Assembly: GCA_016788185.1 (NCBI GenBank)
Contig: JAEUTF010000033.1
Coordinates: 1 to 57,168, forward strand
Length of the DNA: 57,168 nucleotides
Direction of reading: 5' to 3'
From: Bacteroidia bacterium
GTDB lineage: Bacteria; Bacteroidota; Bacteroidia; AKYH767-A; OLB10
Shown: one piece after another, positions 18,689-27,539 of the stretch
Layout of the letters: the number at the start of each line of letters is the position of its first letter
Numbering within the stretch: position 1 is the first letter of the stretch
The notes under the pieces: generated by a model
The model's input: the letters and a program-made list of their open reading frames with translations, nothing else
What the model was told of the DNA's origin: nothing
Databases searched by the model: none
Made by a program: the position numbers and the translations under genes

Positions 18689-19339
18689 ATGCTGCATAAA
18701 CTTCTGGATTTTATTCTGCACATCAACGACCACCTGGCCCTGATGGTGCAGGAATACGGAATGGCCGTTTACGGAATCCTCTTCCTGATCATTTTTATTG
18801 AAACCGGACTGGTGCTCATGCCTTTTTTACCCGGCGACTCCCTCTTGTTTGCTGCCGGAGCACTCTGTGCCAACGAAGCCACCGGACTCCATTTAGGGGT
18901 ATTGATTCTGCTCCTGAGTATAGCGGCCATCCTGGGCGACAACACCAATTACGCCGTTGGCCGTTTCCTGGGTATCCGGGCACTGCAGATCCAGTTCAGG
19001 GGAAAGAAACTGGTAAAACAGAAATACATCGACCAGACGCATGCCTTCTTTGAACGTCACGGTACCAAAGCCATCATCATGGCGCGCTTCGTACCCATCG
19101 TCAGAACCTTTACCCCCTTTGTAGCCGGTCTGGGACAAATGAGTTACAAAAGTAAATTTCTGCCTTACGACATTGCCGGTGGTCTGCTTTGGATCAGCAG
19201 CATGTCCGTTTGCGGTTACCTTTTCGGTCAAATGCCCTGGGTAAAGGAACATTTCGAAGCGGTCGTTTTGCTGATCATTTTCCTGTCGGTATTGCCCATG
19301 CTGATCGCTATTCTGAAGAATAAAATGGCCAAATCCTGA
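18689..19339 (+). CDS. DedA family membrane protein
   Basis: A 216-residue DedA/SNARE-associated (VTT) protein, a family now linked to flipping of membrane lipids such as undecaprenyl phosphate. Features include an N-terminal hydrophobic helix, the re-entrant segment FIETGLVLMPFLPGDSLLF, GDNTNYAVGRFLG, and the second re-entrant region with RFVPIVRTFTPFVAGLGQM. Further membrane helices lie near 155-180 and 185-210. It starts five bases after the rhodanese gene and its stop shares one base with the aroE ATG, so it belongs to the same operon. Confidence 0.93.
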   Translation: MLHKLLDFILHINDHLALMVQEYGMAVYGILFLIIFIETGLVLMPFLPGDSLLFAAGALCANEATGLHLGVLILLLSIAAILGDNTNYAVGRFLGIRALQIQFRGKKLVKQKYIDQTHAFFERHGTKAIIMARFVPIVRTFTPFVAGLGQMSYKSKFLPYDIAGGLLWISSMSVCGYLFGQMPWVKEHFEAVVLLIIFLSVLPMLIAILKNKMAKS

Positions 19340-20109
19340 TGCCCGTTTATGCCTTGCTCGGTAAAACGCTGAATCACTCTTTCTCCAAAGGCTGGTTTAC
19401 CTCAAAATTTGAAAGGGAAGGACTCGGGGATTACAGGTATATCAACCTGGAAACGGACGATGTTTCGACCATCCGGTCCCTCGTTCAAAGGCATGAACTC
19501 AGCGGATTCAACGTCACCCTTCCGTATAAAACAGCCATTCTGCCCTACCTGGATGATCTCTCGGAGGAGGCCAATGCCATTGGAGCGGTAAATGTTGTAA
19601 AAATCAGCTCAGCAGGAACACTCATCGGATACAATACCGACTGTATAGGCTTCGAGCTCACTTTGATTAAATGGCTCAAGCCCTGTCACACGAGGGCCCT
19701 GATACTGGGCACCGGAGGCGCGTCAAAAGCCGTAGCATACATCTTGAAAAAGCGAGGCATTGACTACCAGTTTGTATCCCGGCACGGAGATGGCCAACAC
19801 ATTTTGCGCTACGATGCCCTGACCATGCTGGATGTACGCAATGCCCCCCTGATTATCAATACAACGCCTCTTGGCATGTACCCGGATACGCTGAGCAAAC
19901 CGGATATCCCTTACGAAGGCGTGGACAAATACCATTTGTTATACGACCTGGTATACAACCCCCCTTTCACTGCCTTTATGGAAGCCGGTGAACTTTATGG
20001 GGCTGCCGTGGTCAATGGCTATGAGATGCTGTTGGAACAGGCACGGGCGGCCTGGGCGATCTGGCAGGCCCCGGCGTCCTCCCTCCAGCAAAGGGCTGAT
20101 CAGGAATGA
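19339..20109 (+). CDS. aroE: Shikimate dehydrogenase
   Basis: A 256-residue AroE, which reduces 3-dehydroshikimate with NADPH in aromatic amino acid synthesis. Substrate-binding motifs are LNHSFSKGWF, the catalytic lysine in NVTLPYKTAI and NAIGAVNVV; NTDCIGFE supplies the conserved Asp. The NADP loop is LILGTGGASKAVAYILK. The C-terminal NPPFTAFMEAGELYGAAVVNGYEML fits the family. The ATG at 19339 overlaps the DedA stop in TGATG. The length is typical, and it is the last gene of the tight operon that starts at 16113. Confidence 0.96.
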   Translation: MPVYALLGKTLNHSFSKGWFTSKFEREGLGDYRYINLETDDVSTIRSLVQRHELSGFNVTLPYKTAILPYLDDLSEEANAIGAVNVVKISSAGTLIGYNTDCIGFELTLIKWLKPCHTRALILGTGGASKAVAYILKKRGIDYQFVSRHGDGQHILRYDALTMLDVRNAPLIINTTPLGMYPDTLSKPDIPYEGVDKYHLLYDLVYNPPFTAFMEAGELYGAAVVNGYEMLLEQARAAWAIWQAPASSLQQRADQE

Positions 20110-20141
20110 GGGGGGATCGCGAAAACTCAGCCCTATTTTAG

Positions 20142-20149
20142 TATCTTCG
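20142..20149 (+). promoter_or_regulatory. Candidate -7 element for the DUF6580 gene
   Basis: TATCTTCG differs from TAnnTTTG at one base. The predicted start is near 20156, giving a leader of about 15 bases. Confidence 0.35.
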
Positions 20150-20170
20150 CAAGCAAATTTCATACAGCAC

Positions 20171-20707
20171 ATGCAACTAGACGGCCGAAACAAATTCATC
20201 ATTGCATTCATCGTATTGGGTGCACTTTCCCGACTGATTCCTCATCCTCTGAACTTTACTCCGGTAGCCGCCATGGCCTTGTTCGGAGGTACATACCTGC
20301 TGAACAAACGCATGGCCTTTCTCGTTCCGGTATCGGTGATGTTTCTCAGCGACACCGTGCTTGAACTCGTAAATGGCAGCGGCTTCCACCCCGAAATGAT
20401 CTGGGTTTATGGAAGTATGCTTTTGATTACGGGACTTGGGTTTTTCCTTCGCGGTCGTGAACAAAGGCAAACGATCATGGTTGCTTCCTTAAGCGGCTCC
20501 CTCCTCTTCTTCTTTATCACCAATTTCGGAACCTGGACGACCGGTCTTTATGGCTACACGGCGCAGGGCCTCGGGCAATGTTACATTGCGGCGATTCCCT
20601 TTTTCAAAGGCACCGTCATGGGCGATTTGTTCTACAACCTCGTTTTCTTCGGCGGCTTTGCACTCGTTAACCGCTTTGCACCTCAACTGGTAAAAAAGAA
20701 AGTTTAA
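20171..20707 (+). CDS. DUF6580-like membrane protein, possible transporter subunit
   Basis: A 178-residue integral membrane protein with about five or six hydrophobic segments. The sequence ALSRLIPHPLNFTPVAAMALFGGTYL is the signature of the DUF6580 family, described as putative transport proteins resembling the substrate-binding subunits of energy-coupling factor transporters. GDLFYNLVFFGGFALVNRF closes the protein. The frame is open upstream to 19988, but the ATG at 20171 starts the conserved part and follows a -7-like element. No ATPase partner is nearby. A strong terminator follows. Confidence 0.75.
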   Translation: MQLDGRNKFIIAFIVLGALSRLIPHPLNFTPVAAMALFGGTYLLNKRMAFLVPVSVMFLSDTVLELVNGSGFHPEMIWVYGSMLLITGLGFFLRGREQRQTIMVASLSGSLLFFFITNFGTWTTGLYGYTAQGLGQCYIAAIPFFKGTVMGDLFYNLVFFGGFALVNRFAPQLVKKKV

Positions 20708-20728
20708 AGCCTTTCCACAGGCGTTCAG

Positions 20729-20759
20729 AAAGGATAGCCATGATCACTATCCTTTTTTT
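20729..20759 (+). terminator. Intrinsic terminator after the DUF6580 gene
   Basis: AAAGGATAG (20729-20737) and CTATCCTTT (20747-20755) form a stem with a nine-base loop, followed by a T-run to 20759. It ends the 16113-20707 gene set. Confidence 0.85.
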
Positions 20760-20760
20760 A

Positions 20761-21144
20761 TCAGGGGAGTTTACTGCCTGGCAGAGCATACCATGAACGC
20801 ACTTCCACTACCAAACGACCTGCTTTCACGGCGGGATCGGCCGATGCACAGGAAGCCGCTTCCTCCTTTGAACCCACATTGTAAATGCAAATGCCCCTGA
20901 TCTCCTCATCACCCCCTACCGGACCGGCCATGCACATCTTCCCCGATTCATGCATTTTACCCAAATGAGCCAGGTGCTCCTTTTGAATGGTTGCCGCCGT
21001 TAATGAGTCATGGCTGCGGTCAGGCCCCTTTTTAAGGAAAACAAGGTAATATTCTTTGATATCAGCCGGATTGAAGGCCGGTTGCTGCGCCCAGGCCGCA
21101 TTTACCAGGATCAGCAATAAGAAGAACAGTTTGAGTTTTTTCAT
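20761..21144 (-). CDS. Exported YCII-related protein
   Basis: A 127-residue protein with a signal peptide (MKKLKLFFLLLILVNAAWAQ) and a YCII-related domain: YYLVFLKKGPDRSHDSLT, KEHLAHLGKMHESGKMCMAGPVGGDE and a final VEVRSWYALPG. The conserved His of the family (in KEHLAHL) and the GP turn are present. YCII domains are small dimeric alpha-beta proteins of uncertain enzymology; exported versions are common in Bacteroidota. It is divergent from apbC and convergent with the DUF6580 gene. Confidence 0.82.
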   Translation of the reverse strand: MKKLKLFFLLLILVNAAWAQQPAFNPADIKEYYLVFLKKGPDRSHDSLTAATIQKEHLAHLGKMHESGKMCMAGPVGGDEEIRGICIYNVGSKEEAASCASADPAVKAGRLVVEVRSWYALPGSKLP

Positions 21145-21191
21145 TGCAGGATATATTCGGGTTTATCCGCTAAGATACGCGGTCTATTTTC

Positions 21192-21199
21192 TAAATTTG
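21192..21199 (+). promoter_or_regulatory. TAnnTTTG element upstream of apbC
   Basis: TAAATTTG is an exact match. The predicted start is near 21206, giving a leader of about 36 bases. Confidence 0.45.
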
Positions 21200-21241
21200 C
21201 ATATCTGTTTACTTTCCATTTTGTTATACTAAAACAAGCCT

Positions 21242-22342
21242 ATGATTACGAAAGAAAAAGTATTGGAAGCCCTTAGCCAGGTAGAAGAACCGGATCTGAA
21301 AAAAGACCTGGTAAGCCTTAACATGGTGAAAGACATAGCCATTGATGGCAAAAAAGTCAGTTTTACGGTTGTATTAACCACGCCTGCTTGTCCGCTAAAA
21401 GAACTCATTGCCAATGCCTGCAGAAATGCCATTGTTCACCTGGTAGATGCGGACGCGGAAGTTACCGTAAACATGACTGCCAACGTTACCTCGAAACGTC
21501 CGGATGCGGAGGAAATGCTTCCGGGTGTGAAGAATATCATTGCCATTGCCTCCGGCAAAGGCGGAGTCGGCAAATCAACCGTGGCGGCCAATCTGGCGGT
21601 GGCCATGGCGCAAACCGGCGCCAGGGTCGGATTGATCGACGCTGATATTTATGGCCCCTCGCAGCCCATCATGTTTGGGGTGGAAGGAGAACGCCTCTTC
21701 ATCACCGAGAAAAAGGGCCGGCAATACATGGTTCCTGTTGAAAAACACGGGGTACGTCTTTTATCCATCGGATTCATGGCGGATCCCAGCCAGGCCATTG
21801 TATGGCGCGGGCCGATGGCCTCCAAGGCTTTGCAGCAACTCTTTAGTGATGCCGACTGGGGCGAACTGGATTACCTCTTTATTGATTTGCCGCCCGGCAC
21901 CAGCGATATCCATCTCACCCTTGCCGCCACCGTTCCCGTAACCGGTGCCATCATCGTGTCCACCCCGCAGCAGGTGGCTCTGGCCGATGCCCGTAAAGGA
22001 ATTTCTATGTTCCAGATGGAATCCATTAAAATTCCGGTGTTGGGTCTGGTGGAAAACATGGCTTATTTCACTCCCCAGGAGTTGCCTGAAAACAACTATT
22101 ATATTTTCGGAAAGGGCGGCTGCCGGCGGCTGGCCGAGGAGTTGCATATCCCCTTTTTAGGAGAAATACCTCTGGTGCAAAGCATCTGCGAGGGCGGAGA
22201 CAGCGGGCATCCGGTAGTATTGGATGAAAAGCATCCTGCCACCCTGGCCTTTTTAGCTGTAGCCGGCAATGTCGCCCAGCAGATCGCCATTCGCAATGCC
22301 AGCGTACAGCCCACTCAACAAACGGAAAACGCTTCTGCCTGA
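21242..22342 (+). CDS. apbC: Mrp/ApbC iron-sulfur cluster carrier ATPase
   Basis: A 366-residue Mrp/NBP35-type P-loop protein that carries iron-sulfur clusters to target proteins. The N-terminal MIP18/DUF59 domain covers about 1-80 and contains TTPACPLKE. The deviant Walker A ASGKGGVGKST lies at about 103-113, followed by LIDADIYGPS and FIDLPPGTSD. In E. coli Mrp the segment after ENM holds a CxxC motif that binds the bridging cluster. Here that segment reads ENMAYFTPQELPENNYYIFG (271-290) and has no cysteine, as I recall for other Bacteroidota members. The next gene, two bases on, encodes a NifU domain with CxxC. Confidence 0.93.
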   Translation: MITKEKVLEALSQVEEPDLKKDLVSLNMVKDIAIDGKKVSFTVVLTTPACPLKELIANACRNAIVHLVDADAEVTVNMTANVTSKRPDAEEMLPGVKNIIAIASGKGGVGKSTVAANLAVAMAQTGARVGLIDADIYGPSQPIMFGVEGERLFITEKKGRQYMVPVEKHGVRLLSIGFMADPSQAIVWRGPMASKALQQLFSDADWGELDYLFIDLPPGTSDIHLTLAATVPVTGAIIVSTPQQVALADARKGISMFQMESIKIPVLGLVENMAYFTPQELPENNYYIFGKGGCRRLAEELHIPFLGEIPLVQSICEGGDSGHPVVLDEKHPATLAFLAVAGNVAQQIAIRNASVQPTQQTENASA

Positions 22343-22344
22343 CG

Positions 22345-22590
22345 ATGTCACACCCCGAAAAAGATCTCATTCTAAGGATCGAAGAAACCCTCGCCCAGTT
22401 GCGTCCTTATCTGGAGGCCGACAACGGCAATGTCAGTTTTGTTGAACTGACTGATGATTTCGTGGTAAGGGTCAGACTGGAGGGCGCCTGCAGTTCATGT
22501 TCCATGAGTACCATGACACTCAAAGCCGGCATTGAACAATCCATCCTGAAAGCCATCCCTGAGGTGAAGGGCGTGGAAGCCATCGCCTGA
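22345..22590 (+). CDS. NifU C-terminal domain protein (iron-sulfur scaffold)
   Basis: An 81-residue protein that is just a NifU C-terminal (Nfu-type) domain. The cluster ligands are the CxxC pair C49 and C52 in LEGACSSCSMSTMTLKAGIE. Nfu domains hold [4Fe-4S] clusters and pass them on. It follows apbC by two bases, so the two are cotranscribed, fitting a scaffold that hands a cluster to or from the ATPase. The start at ATG 22345 matches the family N-terminus. Confidence 0.95.
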   Translation: MSHPEKDLILRIEETLAQLRPYLEADNGNVSFVELTDDFVVRVRLEGACSSCSMSTMTLKAGIEQSILKAIPEVKGVEAIA

Positions 22591-22620
22591 TAACAGAGCC
22601 TGTCGTTCCGTTTTACAGGT

Positions 22621-25600
22621 TTAAAAACCAGGGAAAGTGATCAGCATATTGAATCCATCCCGGGTACCCGGTGTGGCTGCTCCTTTCAGTTGGGACACCC
22701 ATGTTCTGACGAGGGTAAAGCCCAGCGTTCCGGACTTTTCCCAGTCATAGCCTTTCGGTAATCCGCAACCGTTGTCCTTCAGCTCGAGTACATAATAATC
22801 TCCCTGTTTTTTTAGCGAAACGCTGATCTCACCTGAACTCCGGCCCTTGAAGGCATGTCTCATCGAATTACCTGCCACTTCGTGAACGATCATGGCGCAG
22901 GATACTGCCGCCGCAAGCGGCAGGCGGGTATCGGACGTTCCGGTTTGCAGTGTTAAACTGAAATCCTTATTGATCCAGTCTTCCTGCATTCCGTGCAGCA
23001 AGGGATGAATCCAGGAATTGAACGCCACCGCATTTTCAGCATTGTTTTCCGTGAACAACTCCTGCACCAATTGCAGAACTGCCAGCCGCCCCCTGTTTTC
23101 CTTCAGTACCTGCCTGAAATGCTCCGTAGCAGCAAAATACTGTTCCAGCTGAAGCAATGAACTCATCACTGAAAAGTGGGTACGCACCTGCGCTTTCAGC
23201 TCTTCAAATTTTTCCTGTTCACGCAACAGGCGTTGCCGGTTATCCTGTTCCAGCGTAATCCGGGCAGTCACATCACAAAAAGTTACCAGTGAGCCGGTCA
23301 CCGTATTCCTGTCGGCCGAAAGCATCGGTGCGGCATTCAGTGAAAGCCACTTCACGGGCGCTTCTCCGCCGGCTATGCCCATGACCATGTCCTTCAGGAA
23401 AGACCGTTGATGCATGGCCATCAGGCAGGGTAATTCGTGATCACTGAGAAGTGTGCCATCGGCGTGCAAGAGCTTCCATCCTTCACCGTTCCGGAAGGGT
23501 CCGGTACCGATGAGCTGACTGACCGGAATCCCGAGCAGCTCAGCGGCGGATGTATTGCAACTCAGGTGTACACCCTTCGCATCCGTAATAATGACACCTT
23601 CCGCCATGGTATCGAACACGGTTCTGAAACGGGTTTCACTTTCAAGGATACTGCTGTTGATTTTTTTTCTTTCGAGAGCAGTACCGATCAGATCTGCCAC
23701 CGCGGTCAGTAACTCAATTTCCTCAACCGTCCATGAACGGTATTCCCTGCACTCATCAAATCCCATAAAGCCCCACCATTCCTCTCCGGCCATGACCGGT
23801 ACCACCAGCAGGGATTTGATTTGCTGCGGAAGCAAGGCCGCCTGCTCCATGGCCGGAAACTCATTCACATTCCCATAGAGCGCTTTCCCTGAACTAAGGC
23901 TGTCCACCCAACGTGTGAAGCCGTTGCCGATGAGATCAAAATCCTTTAACGCCTCGTTGTCCTTTTGGGAACTGAACTGCTGATCGTTCCATTCCAGAAT
24001 CTGACTGGTCAACAATTCTCCTCCCTGCCGCTGCTCCGAATTTCTGAACACATACACCCGGTTCACGGCCGAGGCTTCTCCGATCTTTGCCAGCATCATC
24101 CGGATGGAAGATTCAAGCTCCTTGTCGCTTTGAAGCCTGGCGGAGAACAGCGTAATGGCTTCCATCAGGCTTTGCCTTTTCCTGCTGCTGAGTTCCGCTT
24201 CTTTGGATCTGGTAATGTCGATGGCAATGCCCTGAATCACCTGCTCCTGCTTCTCCGCGTTTATCTTCACGATGCATCTGAACCAAACATAGCCCCCCTC
24301 CTCACGACGAATACGGTGCTCGAATTCGAGTCCAGTGCCTGTTTGCACCACCGTGTCCATAAAATTCATTAGACCGGCGACATCGTCCGGATGAATGGCC
24401 CCGAGATATTTACGGTATAACTCCTGCGGGGAGATGTCGGGATTCCAACCCAGCAATGCAAAAAGATGCTCTGACCAATACACTTCCTCCCTGGTGTAAT
24501 TAAATTCAAAAGAACCAAAGCGGGCGTAGTTCCCGGCTTCATCCAGGATGGCTTTCAGTTTCCTGCTTTTTTCAATGACATTCTTCTCAGCAGTGATGTT
24601 CTTTGAAGTGACGATGATCTGACCGGAGTCTGCCATCCGCATCAGGCGGGCTTTAAAGTGCAGCATGGAATCCTTGAATGGCATGCTGTAAAAGAACTCC
24701 CCGGACTGGTAATGTTCGTCAAGTTCCTTTTTCGCCTGATAATACAAAGGCAGGATATGTTCCGGCAACACTTCGTTGATCGGCTCACCCAAAAACAATT
24801 CTTTTTCCATGAAGAGAATACTTTCATCCTTCACGAATGCATCCTGGAACCGATCCTGCTCATCCAGAATAAACACCATGTCATCGAGACATTGCACCAA
24901 TTTTATCATCTCCTCCTGCTTTGCCATCAGCCTGAGTTCGGTTTCCTTCTGGCGGGTGATGTCATAAATGGTACCGTAGGTATACACGACCCCATCCTCC
25001 CTGTATTCGTGTACCGCTTTAATCAGAAACCAATGAAATTCCGGCTTCACCTCCGGAATGAGCTGAAACTCTATTTCCATGGGTGTTTTTTCCCTGATGG
25101 AAAGCTCAATTCTGCTCTTGAAATTTTCCAGGAAACGCGGATGCACATACCTGGCGAGGCTCTCGTTGTAATTCATGGCCTCCTCGCGGGTGATATTGGT
25201 AAATTCATAAAGGCGGTCGCTCACATATTCAAATTTTCGCTGACCGTCCTGGCTCATTTTAATGATATACACCACACCGGGAATGGAACTGCTGATTTCC
25301 TCCAACTGCCGGCTCTTTTCCCGGATTTCCCGCCCAATCGCCTCTTTCTCCATCAGCACCCCCACCACATTGACCGCACGTTGCATCAATGTACTTTCAA
25401 AATCACTCAGATCATGGATACTGCGGAAGTAGGCTCCCAATGTGCCCAGTACTTGTCCGTCCCGGCTGATAATCGGAAAAGCAGAGCAGGATTGAAAACC
25501 ATAGAGGAGAGTTAAGTCGCGGTACGTATCCCAGCATTCATGTTCCCGTATATTGCTGATGAAAACCGGCTCCATCGAATAGGCTGCAAGTCCGCAGGAG

Positions 25601-26628
25601 CCATGCAGGGAATCAATGGGGATTTCCTTTACTTTATCCGTGTAGGAAGCCGGAAGGCCGGGATGACTCAGCCACTCCAGTGCCATCTCGTCCTTCTTCC
25701 GGGAGGTTACATAGCAGGTCATTCCGGGAGAAAGCAATTCAATCCCTTCCACGAGGGTATCCAGAATCACCTTAATGTTCTCTTCCCGGTTCGCCAGCTC
25801 AAACACTTTTGTTTCCAGCGACTCCCATGCCTTCATCCTCCACCGGGCCGTGATATCGCGCACAAAAAAGGAAACGGCCGATATCTTTCCCGCATTTACA
25901 ATCGGATTTACGGCCGTTTCAATGTGATAGGTTTCATCCAGAAAAATACTCATGTCCAGCATCTGCCTTTCGCCGGAACAGGCCTGATGAAGCAAGGGCA
26001 CCCATTGCCGGTGTAATTCTTCCGGAAGCGCCTCCACAATATTTATTCCTTCCGAAACTACAATCCTGAAAAAGTCATGCAGTACCCTGCGAAAATGGTC
26101 ATTGAACATCAGCAATTCGCCCTCACAACTGACGATGAACACATAGTCATCCGTATTTTCAATGACCGACTTCAGGCTGGCCGTCTGATCCGTGATTTTT
26201 TCTTCAGCTACTTTCAGATCGGTGATGTTTTGTCCCTGACCCTTCAGGATGCCTTCGCGAAGGTTCCAGCAATTGGTCAGAAAATAAAACACCTTATGAT
26301 CGGCCGATTTCATTCTGATTTCAAAGCGATCGGAAAAATCAGGGTTGCTACGGTTTTCGATGGCGAGATTACATTTCTCCTTTACCAGCGGTATATCGTC
26401 GGCAAACACATAGCGCTCGGCATATTCAAGCAGATTGAGGGCCTCCGGAACATTGTTGTATCCCAGGGCTCCGAGCATTTTCTGATGCTGAAAATCAAGC
26501 TGAATGATGAGACTGTTGAGGTCCAGGTCCCATCCTGAAACCAGGTAAACATCGGGTCCCGGACCGGTCCTTGTCAAATTTCTCTCGGGGTTTATGGCTG
26601 TCTGATCCATCTGCCTGGTATTTTTCAA
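22621..26628 (-). CDS. Cytoplasmic multi-PAS/GAF histidine kinase with degenerate phospho-acceptor region
   Basis: A 1335-residue protein without membrane helices. Approximate order: PAS modules over residues 30-275, GAF (about 285-430), PAS (about 440-570, 575-690 and 705-830), a second GAF (about 840-1005), another PAS (about 1010-1130), then an HWE/HisKA_2-like helix pair and a HATPase domain. ATP-binding boxes are intact: HEVAGNSMRHAF (1249-1260), DNGCGLP (1285-1291) and GTLGFTL (1300-1306). Where relatives have E-[IV]-H-H-R-V-K-N-N the protein reads ELKAQVRTHF (from about 1143): both histidines are replaced, and the nearest is H1151. It may signal without canonical autophosphorylation or use another residue. 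No response-regulator gene is adjacent. Confidence 0.85.
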   Translation of the reverse strand: MKNTRQMDQTAINPERNLTRTGPGPDVYLVSGWDLDLNSLIIQLDFQHQKMLGALGYNNVPEALNLLEYAERYVFADDIPLVKEKCNLAIENRSNPDFSDRFEIRMKSADHKVFYFLTNCWNLREGILKGQGQNITDLKVAEEKITDQTASLKSVIENTDDYVFIVSCEGELLMFNDHFRRVLHDFFRIVVSEGINIVEALPEELHRQWVPLLHQACSGERQMLDMSIFLDETYHIETAVNPIVNAGKISAVSFFVRDITARWRMKAWESLETKVFELANREENIKVILDTLVEGIELLSPGMTCYVTSRKKDEMALEWLSHPGLPASYTDKVKEIPIDSLHGSCGLAAYSMEPVFISNIREHECWDTYRDLTLLYGFQSCSAFPIISRDGQVLGTLGAYFRSIHDLSDFESTLMQRAVNVVGVLMEKEAIGREIREKSRQLEEISSSIPGVVYIIKMSQDGQRKFEYVSDRLYEFTNITREEAMNYNESLARYVHPRFLENFKSRIELSIREKTPMEIEFQLIPEVKPEFHWFLIKAVHEYREDGVVYTYGTIYDITRQKETELRLMAKQEEMIKLVQCLDDMVFILDEQDRFQDAFVKDESILFMEKELFLGEPINEVLPEHILPLYYQAKKELDEHYQSGEFFYSMPFKDSMLHFKARLMRMADSGQIIVTSKNITAEKNVIEKSRKLKAILDEAGNYARFGSFEFNYTREEVYWSEHLFALLGWNPDISPQELYRKYLGAIHPDDVAGLMNFMDTVVQTGTGLEFEHRIRREEGGYVWFRCIVKINAEKQEQVIQGIAIDITRSKEAELSSRKRQSLMEAITLFSARLQSDKELESSIRMMLAKIGEASAVNRVYVFRNSEQRQGGELLTSQILEWNDQQFSSQKDNEALKDFDLIGNGFTRWVDSLSSGKALYGNVNEFPAMEQAALLPQQIKSLLVVPVMAGEEWWGFMGFDECREYRSWTVEEIELLTAVADLIGTALERKKINSSILESETRFRTVFDTMAEGVIITDAKGVHLSCNTSAAELLGIPVSQLIGTGPFRNGEGWKLLHADGTLLSDHELPCLMAMHQRSFLKDMVMGIAGGEAPVKWLSLNAAPMLSADRNTVTGSLVTFCDVTARITLEQDNRQRLLREQEKFEELKAQVRTHFSVMSSLLQLEQYFAATEHFRQVLKENRGRLAVLQLVQELFTENNAENAVAFNSWIHPLLHGMQEDWINKDFSLTLQTGTSDTRLPLAAAVSCAMIVHEVAGNSMRHAFKGRSSGEISVSLKKQGDYYVLELKDNGCGLPKGYDWEKSGTLGFTLVRTWVSQLKGAATPGTRDGFNMLITFPGF

Positions 26629-26712
26629 TTTTTAGTCAATGAAAAATACAATCAGCAGGCATACTCCGCGGATTCCGGAATTTTTTTTTTCAACAATACG
26701 CGGTCCCTGTGA

Positions 26713-27429
26713 TCAGGGTTTAACGAGGAGCTGACCCGCCTTAAAAACTTCGTTTTTGAGCACAGCTCCGTTCCGGTCGTACTCAATCCAGGATCCCTCC
26801 TTCAGGCCGTTCCGAAAAGTACCCGACTCCCTGATTTTCCCGTCACCAAAATATATTTTTACCGGCCCGTTTTCCTTGTCGGCTTTGTAGAACATTTCAA
26901 AGATCAGTTTCCCGTTTTCATTGTATTGGCGGTAGGGTCCATCTCTTTTACCCTTCAGGTAGGACTTCTCTTCCGCCAATACTCCCGATTCATAGAATAC
27001 TTTCCAATTTCCTTCCGGCAAGCCCTGCTTATACCCTTCAATGGACTTCACTGAATCATTCTCTCCATAATATACCCAAACGGAATCCTTTTTCAGTTCA
27101 AAATACCTGCCTTTCGCCATGATCTTTCCATTTTCATAGTAGGATATGGCGCTTGACCGTCGGGCATCTTTTTCAAAATGAACCTCGGCTTTCAGCTTAC
27201 CGCTTTCGTACCATGTTTTCGATACCCCCAGCGGCTTGTCGTTTTTGAAGACGGTCTCGGAGCAGAGTGTATCGGTGCGGTAGTACTTGCGCCAAATCCC
27301 CTGCTTCAGCCCCTTCTGATCCTTTCTATTGATGGTATCGCCTTTGAATACCTGAAAAGATTGTTGCTGCGCCATCCCGGCCAGGGACAAGAAGAGCAGG
27401 ACAGTAAGAAGAAGGAGCCGGACTTTCAT
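26713..27429 (-). CDS. Exported MORN-repeat protein (YwqK-like)
   Basis: A 238-residue protein from the ATG at 27429, which gives a signal peptide (MKVRLLLLTVLLFLSLAGMAQ). The rest is a ladder of MORN_2-type repeats with the pattern Y-x-x-G-x-x-x-x-x-x-x-Y-x-x-G-K, for example WYESGKLKAEVHFEKD, YYENGKIMAKGRY, FYESGVLAEEKSYLKGKRDG and YNENGKLIFEMFYK. Such proteins form elongated beta-hairpin stacks; many are annotated as antitoxin YwqK family by similarity, which does not establish a toxin-antitoxin role here. No toxin-like neighbour is present. It is divergent from the TonB receptor gene. Confidence 0.85.
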   Translation of the reverse strand: MKVRLLLLTVLLFLSLAGMAQQQSFQVFKGDTINRKDQKGLKQGIWRKYYRTDTLCSETVFKNDKPLGVSKTWYESGKLKAEVHFEKDARRSSAISYYENGKIMAKGRYFELKKDSVWVYYGENDSVKSIEGYKQGLPEGNWKVFYESGVLAEEKSYLKGKRDGPYRQYNENGKLIFEMFYKADKENGPVKIYFGDGKIRESGTFRNGLKEGSWIEYDRNGAVLKNEVFKAGQLLVKP

Positions 27430-27539
27430 GCTGCAAAAATGCAAATTCATTTTAATCCTGTTGCCAGCCCCCTTTGATTTTAGCTGCATCGCGGAGATTC
27501 TTAATTTCATACGGACGATAACGGCAATCCTCAATTCAT

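Follow-up and report, generated by a model that had tools for sequence, protein, structure and literature searches.

A PAS/GAF HisKA_2-type sensor protein without the canonical acceptor histidine: a candidate pseudo-histidine kinase in a Bacteroidia bacterium

One gene in the window, the 57,168-nucleotide stretch of DNA analyzed here, encodes a PAS/GAF HisKA_2-type sensor protein that has no histidine at the canonical phospho-acceptor site, while orthologues at the same gene position in a sister genus have an intact H-box. The change extends over most of the DHp part, and the ATP-binding (CA) domain is the better kept part of the transmitter. We lean toward the view that the protein is a pseudo-histidine kinase whose sensors signal through contact with another kinase or a response regulator.

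Results

The gene lies on the minus strand at positions 22621 to 26628, as do all features given below unless stated otherwise, and comprises 1,335 codons when read from a TTG. The ATG at 26610 (M7) is likely the true start, because the syntenic orthologue opens with MDQSNN and the sensor protein reads MDQTAI from residue 7. The protein has a size of ~1,330 amino acids and is soluble, with no membrane segment detected by hydropathy. The reading frame is open across all 1,335 codons, with GC3 and codon usage like those of the neighboring genes.

Six sensory modules score above the Pfam cut-off, in the order PAS, GAF, PAS_3, PAS_3, GAF, PAS. They are a PAS module at residues 152 to 259 (25852 to 26175; PF00989, 26.0 bits), a GAF module at residues 288 to 424 (25357 to 25767; PF01590, 44.1 bits), two PAS_3 modules at residues 468 to 549 (24982 to 25227; PF08447, 26.3 bits) and 716 to 800 (24229 to 24483; PF08447, 52.7 bits), a second GAF module at residues 838 to 985 (23674 to 24117; PF01590, 48.2 bits), and a PAS module adjoining the transmitter at residues 1005 to 1123 (23260 to 23616; PF00989, 34.9 bits, and PF08448, 25.1 bits). 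With a weak PAS_4-like module below the cut-off (residues 581 to 682; 24583 to 24888; PF08448, 13.4 bits) and an N-terminal PAS-like module that has no Pfam match, the eight PAS/GAF modules counted in the first-pass annotation are a fair description. The number of modules varies: orthologous kinases of the sister genus (L052, 3423 to 8519; L053; L054) carry extra PAS_3-like modules.

The sensory region leads into a degenerate pair of DHp (HisKA_2) helices, placed at residues 1121 to 1194 (23047 to 23268) by Pfam and AlphaFold. Within it, residues 1143 to 1152 (23173 to 23202) indeed read ELKAQVRTHF, the altered H-box that the first-pass annotation had pointed out. Aligned without gaps to 30 homologues drawn from 61 genomes, the protein has K1145 and A1146 in the two His columns, and A1146, Q1147, and T1150 take the places of H, R, and N in the HRxxN signature. 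Ala1146 stands in the acceptor column and His1151 in a non-acceptor column. In EL346 the acceptor is presumably the His that precedes Arg, His142. In a sequence alignment, the acceptor His of EL346 (4r3a) falls on A1146. The Pfam HisKA_2 profile (PF07568) gives the same register, with a match that begins only at profile position 7 to 8, after the acceptor; the whole protein scores 20.0 bits, below the cut-off of 22.3, and C-terminal pieces score 22.8 to 24.9 bits. The register that had been called secure is therefore upheld by all homologues and by the profile, and the C-terminal region is homologous to the HisKA_2 DHp domain. The acceptor His and the HRxxN signature of an active HisKA_2/HWE kinase are missing, and a histidine kinase fold with a non-phosphorylatable residue (Ala1146) at the acceptor position corresponds to a pseudo-histidine kinase. 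Judged from the sequence, canonical autophosphorylation has probably been lost.

The CA (HATPase) domain spans residues 1219 to 1335 (22624 to 22974; HATPase_c, 30.9 bits against a cut-off of 26.4) and is also seen in the AlphaFold model. The alignment locates an N-box HEVAGNSMRHAF at residues 1249 to 1260 (22849 to 22884), a G1 box DNGCGL at residues 1285 to 1290 (22759 to 22776), and a G2 box TLGFTL at residues 1301 to 1306 (22711 to 22728), and the retained residues are N1254 in the N box, D1285, G1287, and G1289 in G1, and L1302-G1303 in G2. By its boxes, the domain resembles that of an active HisKA_2/HWE kinase and may bind ATP. The earlier description of normal ATP boxes thus holds, although 7 of the 25 family-invariant residues of the domain are altered.

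The loss of conserved positions is uneven along the transmitter and goes well beyond the two His columns. When family-invariant residues were defined as those at least 90% invariant, and the DHp part was scored across residues 1134 to 1206, the sensor protein kept 7 of 31 in DHp and 18 of 25 in CA (p = 3.6e-4). Every other homologue keeps at least 24 of 27 to 30 in DHp and at least 21 of 24 to 25 in CA.

AlphaFold2, run on residues 1084 to 1335 with the 30 homologues, returned a model with a pLDDT of 86.5, in which DHp forms a pair of long helices and CA a sandwich. Its best structural match is EL346 (VIA-align Z of 20.8 and 19.6), above matches to CA domains only; DivL (4q20) is also matched, chiefly in CA and part of DHp. 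The sequence is compatible with an EL346-like fold, according to a model that draws on homologues whose H-box is intact and is silent on dimerization and activity.

The gene is flanked upstream by a gene for a YwqK-like repeat protein (26713 to 27534), identified by sequence and orthologue comparison, and downstream by a NifU-like C-terminal domain gene on the plus strand (22345 to 22590), identified by its sequence and present also in L210 and L212. Both served as synteny anchors. Across the family, genes for YwqK-like, NifU-like, Mrp, DUF6580-like, and AroE proteins occur together as a conserved block (19339 to 27534 in the window; L210, L212, and L052), and only some genomes of the family have a kinase between YwqK and NifU/Mrp.

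The genomes G007 and G022, both from a sister genus within the same family, contain syntenic orthologues in the gene order YwqK-like, kinase, Mrp, DUF6580-like, AroE, and both orthologues read EIHHRVKNN at the H-box. They are ~32% identical to the sensor protein; the one in G007 is longer (1,698 amino acids), and the one in G022 is split across two contigs. A further relative, in G009, reads KIHHRLKNN and is 34% identical over residues 29 to 820, in a different upstream context. No kinase lies between YwqK and NifU-like/Mrp in G003, which belongs to the same genus as the window, or in G014, where these genes are adjacent. Because it is missing at the same site in these two genomes, the kinase gene is optional in the group. 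Because the syntenic orthologues are intact, the loss of the H-box arose on the branch leading to this genome.

The acceleration on this branch is confined to the transmitter, which evolved several times faster than in the orthologues. Transmitter branch lengths are 1.55 for this lineage versus 0.30 and 0.66 for the two orthologues, whereas those of the sensory region are about equal (1.15 versus 0.96 and 0.99). Lineage-specific changes, with this lineage given first, number 122:109:94 in the sensory region and 54:9:18 in the transmitter (Fisher p = 2.8e-6).

The motif HHR[VIL]KN[ND] is present in all of the ~140 other HisKA_2 loci inspected (62 distinct loci from the 61 relatives and 79 from a wider contig collection, after overlap), and the sensor protein, with K1145/A1146 at the His columns, is the sole exception among them. 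The first-pass annotation was right that a canonical acceptor His is absent. Both H-box surveys favor well-conserved domains, and the 79-locus survey, which chose loci with an intact CA pattern, may miss degenerate ones. Likewise, a Pfam family survey of 197 genomes of the class speaks for the matches listed only, and low-scoring degenerate domains would be hidden from it. No other genome with an ELKAQ-type change was found among all available genomes of the family and the order plus the wider contig collection, so that orthologues sharing the change, for which the first-pass annotation had proposed a search, did not come to light, and the altered H-box is known from one genome only.

The genome has 29 HATPase_c and 42 receiver matches. 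Its only other HisKA_2 kinase (L055, 1478 to 6053; G000:C177) has a Reg_prop-type sensor and an intact EIHHRVKNN, and its gene adjoins one for a REC-PAS-LytTR regulator. No regulator gene lies beside the altered kinase in the window. The transmitters of the two proteins are 26.5% identical.

Discussion

We hypothesize that the protein descends from an intact PAS/GAF-HisKA_2 kinase encoded at this gene position, and that the acceptor His and the HRxxN signature were lost in this lineage. Autophosphorylation at the canonical site and phosphotransfer from it would then no longer be possible, while the DHp helical pair and the ATP-binding CA domain most likely still fold. The signals of the eight PAS/GAF modules would be passed on by protein contact, either through pairing with another kinase, for which the HisKA_2 paralogue beside the REC-PAS-LytTR gene is a candidate, or through binding of a response regulator. 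Contact signaling or a role as a pseudokinase partner, which the first-pass annotation had also proposed, is our best inference because of the analogy with DivL, RocA, and a ChrS variant. The presence of a regulator gene next to the paralogue and of none next to the altered kinase supports a pseudokinase. On the other side, the change occurs in a single genome, the fast transmitter would also be expected from decay, and more than a quarter of the CA consensus residues have gone.

Acceptor-less HWE/HisKA2 kinases and DivL-type pseudokinases have already been published; the kind is known, and the member is new. The best match in sequence and fold is EL346 (PDB 4r3a/4r39), an HWE/HisKA2 kinase with the same DHp-CA fold and register that is likewise soluble with PAS-type sensing. 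However, EL346 has the acceptor His and one LOV domain, whereas the sensor protein has Ala, no HRxxN, and eight PAS/GAF modules. An alphaproteobacterial subgroup of EL346-like LOV kinases of the same class was reported without a conserved acceptor His (PMC10359499); these have a single LOV domain, whereas the sensor protein is a multi-PAS/GAF protein with intact syntenic orthologues. DivL of Caulobacter has multiple PAS domains, a DHp-CA transmitter, and a non-His acceptor with the other histidine kinase motifs kept; its acceptor residue is Tyr (Ala in Magnetospirillum), and it senses a phosphorylated regulator (PMC4211667). DivL differs in that its H-box is otherwise kept, its partner is DivK~P, and it is conserved across alphaproteobacteria, whereas the H-box of the sensor protein has changed throughout, and this change is known from a single genome. 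The sensor protein does not belong to the DivL orthologue family: its homologues in G007, G022, and G009 read IHHR[VL]KNN.

RocA, which acts through CovS (PMC7028121), and a pseudokinase variant of ChrS, which pairs with HrrS (PMC9491836), are kinase-like proteins that work through another kinase by contact. RocA still has its His, which is dispensable, but its CA domain is degraded, and the CA domain of the ChrS variant is frameshifted, whereas CA is the better kept part here. The HWE/HisKA2 phosphotransferases PhyT/PhyP and PhyK belong to the same family and have lost kinase activity, but they keep the acceptor His for relay; the sensor protein is their mirror image in that it lacks the His but keeps CA.

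The main rival to a contact-signaling pseudokinase, to which we give a decidedly smaller chance, is relaxed decay, in which the kinase role has been lost, the transmitter drifts, and the frame has stayed open only for the time being. Both the pace of transmitter divergence relative to the orthologues and the dispensability of the gene, missing even from a genome of the same genus, would be expected. However, ~1.5 substitutions per site have accumulated in the transmitter with no stop codon or frameshift over 1,335 codons, the sensory modules change at about the rate of those in the intact orthologues, and the CA residues that were kept are mainly those of the nucleotide pocket.

Retention of the N, G1, and G2 residues in a protein whose DHp motif is gone could also mean that an active CA domain transfers phosphate to the His of a partner kinase with which the protein forms a mixed dimer, its own DHp being unable to accept. 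The HisKA_2 paralogue encoded in the genome is canonical and has kept its H-box, and if this reading is true, an eight-module cytosolic sensor and its partner HisKA_2 kinase would form a directional pair. We consider such one-way trans-phosphorylation rather unlikely, as the DHp surface needed for pairing has diverged and the identity between the two transmitters is low.

Still more doubtful is phosphorylation of an alternative acceptor, be it His1151, as the first-pass annotation had suggested, or another residue. The two DHp helices contain no His other than His1151 and His1170, and the string LKAQ-x-x-x-HF resembles what we take to be the LytS-family motif, which would allow a LytS-like register. 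Against this, PF06580 (the LytS-type His_kinase family, with a PHF acceptor motif) is unmatched at E values up to 5, so the protein is not a member of that family, and the homologues fix a gap-free HisKA_2 register; we therefore rejected a LytS-type register for His1151, and the LytS-like look is probably due to chance. The column of His1151 lies five residues past the acceptor, and EL346 has a His there in addition to its acceptor His, which marks it as an ordinary site.

That chance or a local assembly or sequencing error produced the altered H-box is very unlikely even in a draft genome of 282 contigs, since 24 of the 31 DHp-invariant residues are changed over ~70 codons whose usage is normal and HHR does not reappear in any other frame, which also led us to reject a compensated frameshift.

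In summary, the gene offers a clean natural case of acceptor loss, in which the orthologues that share its gene position are intact and the rate change is confined to the transmitter. It should be a good model for the question of whether pseudo-histidine kinases arise from decay or from repurposing.
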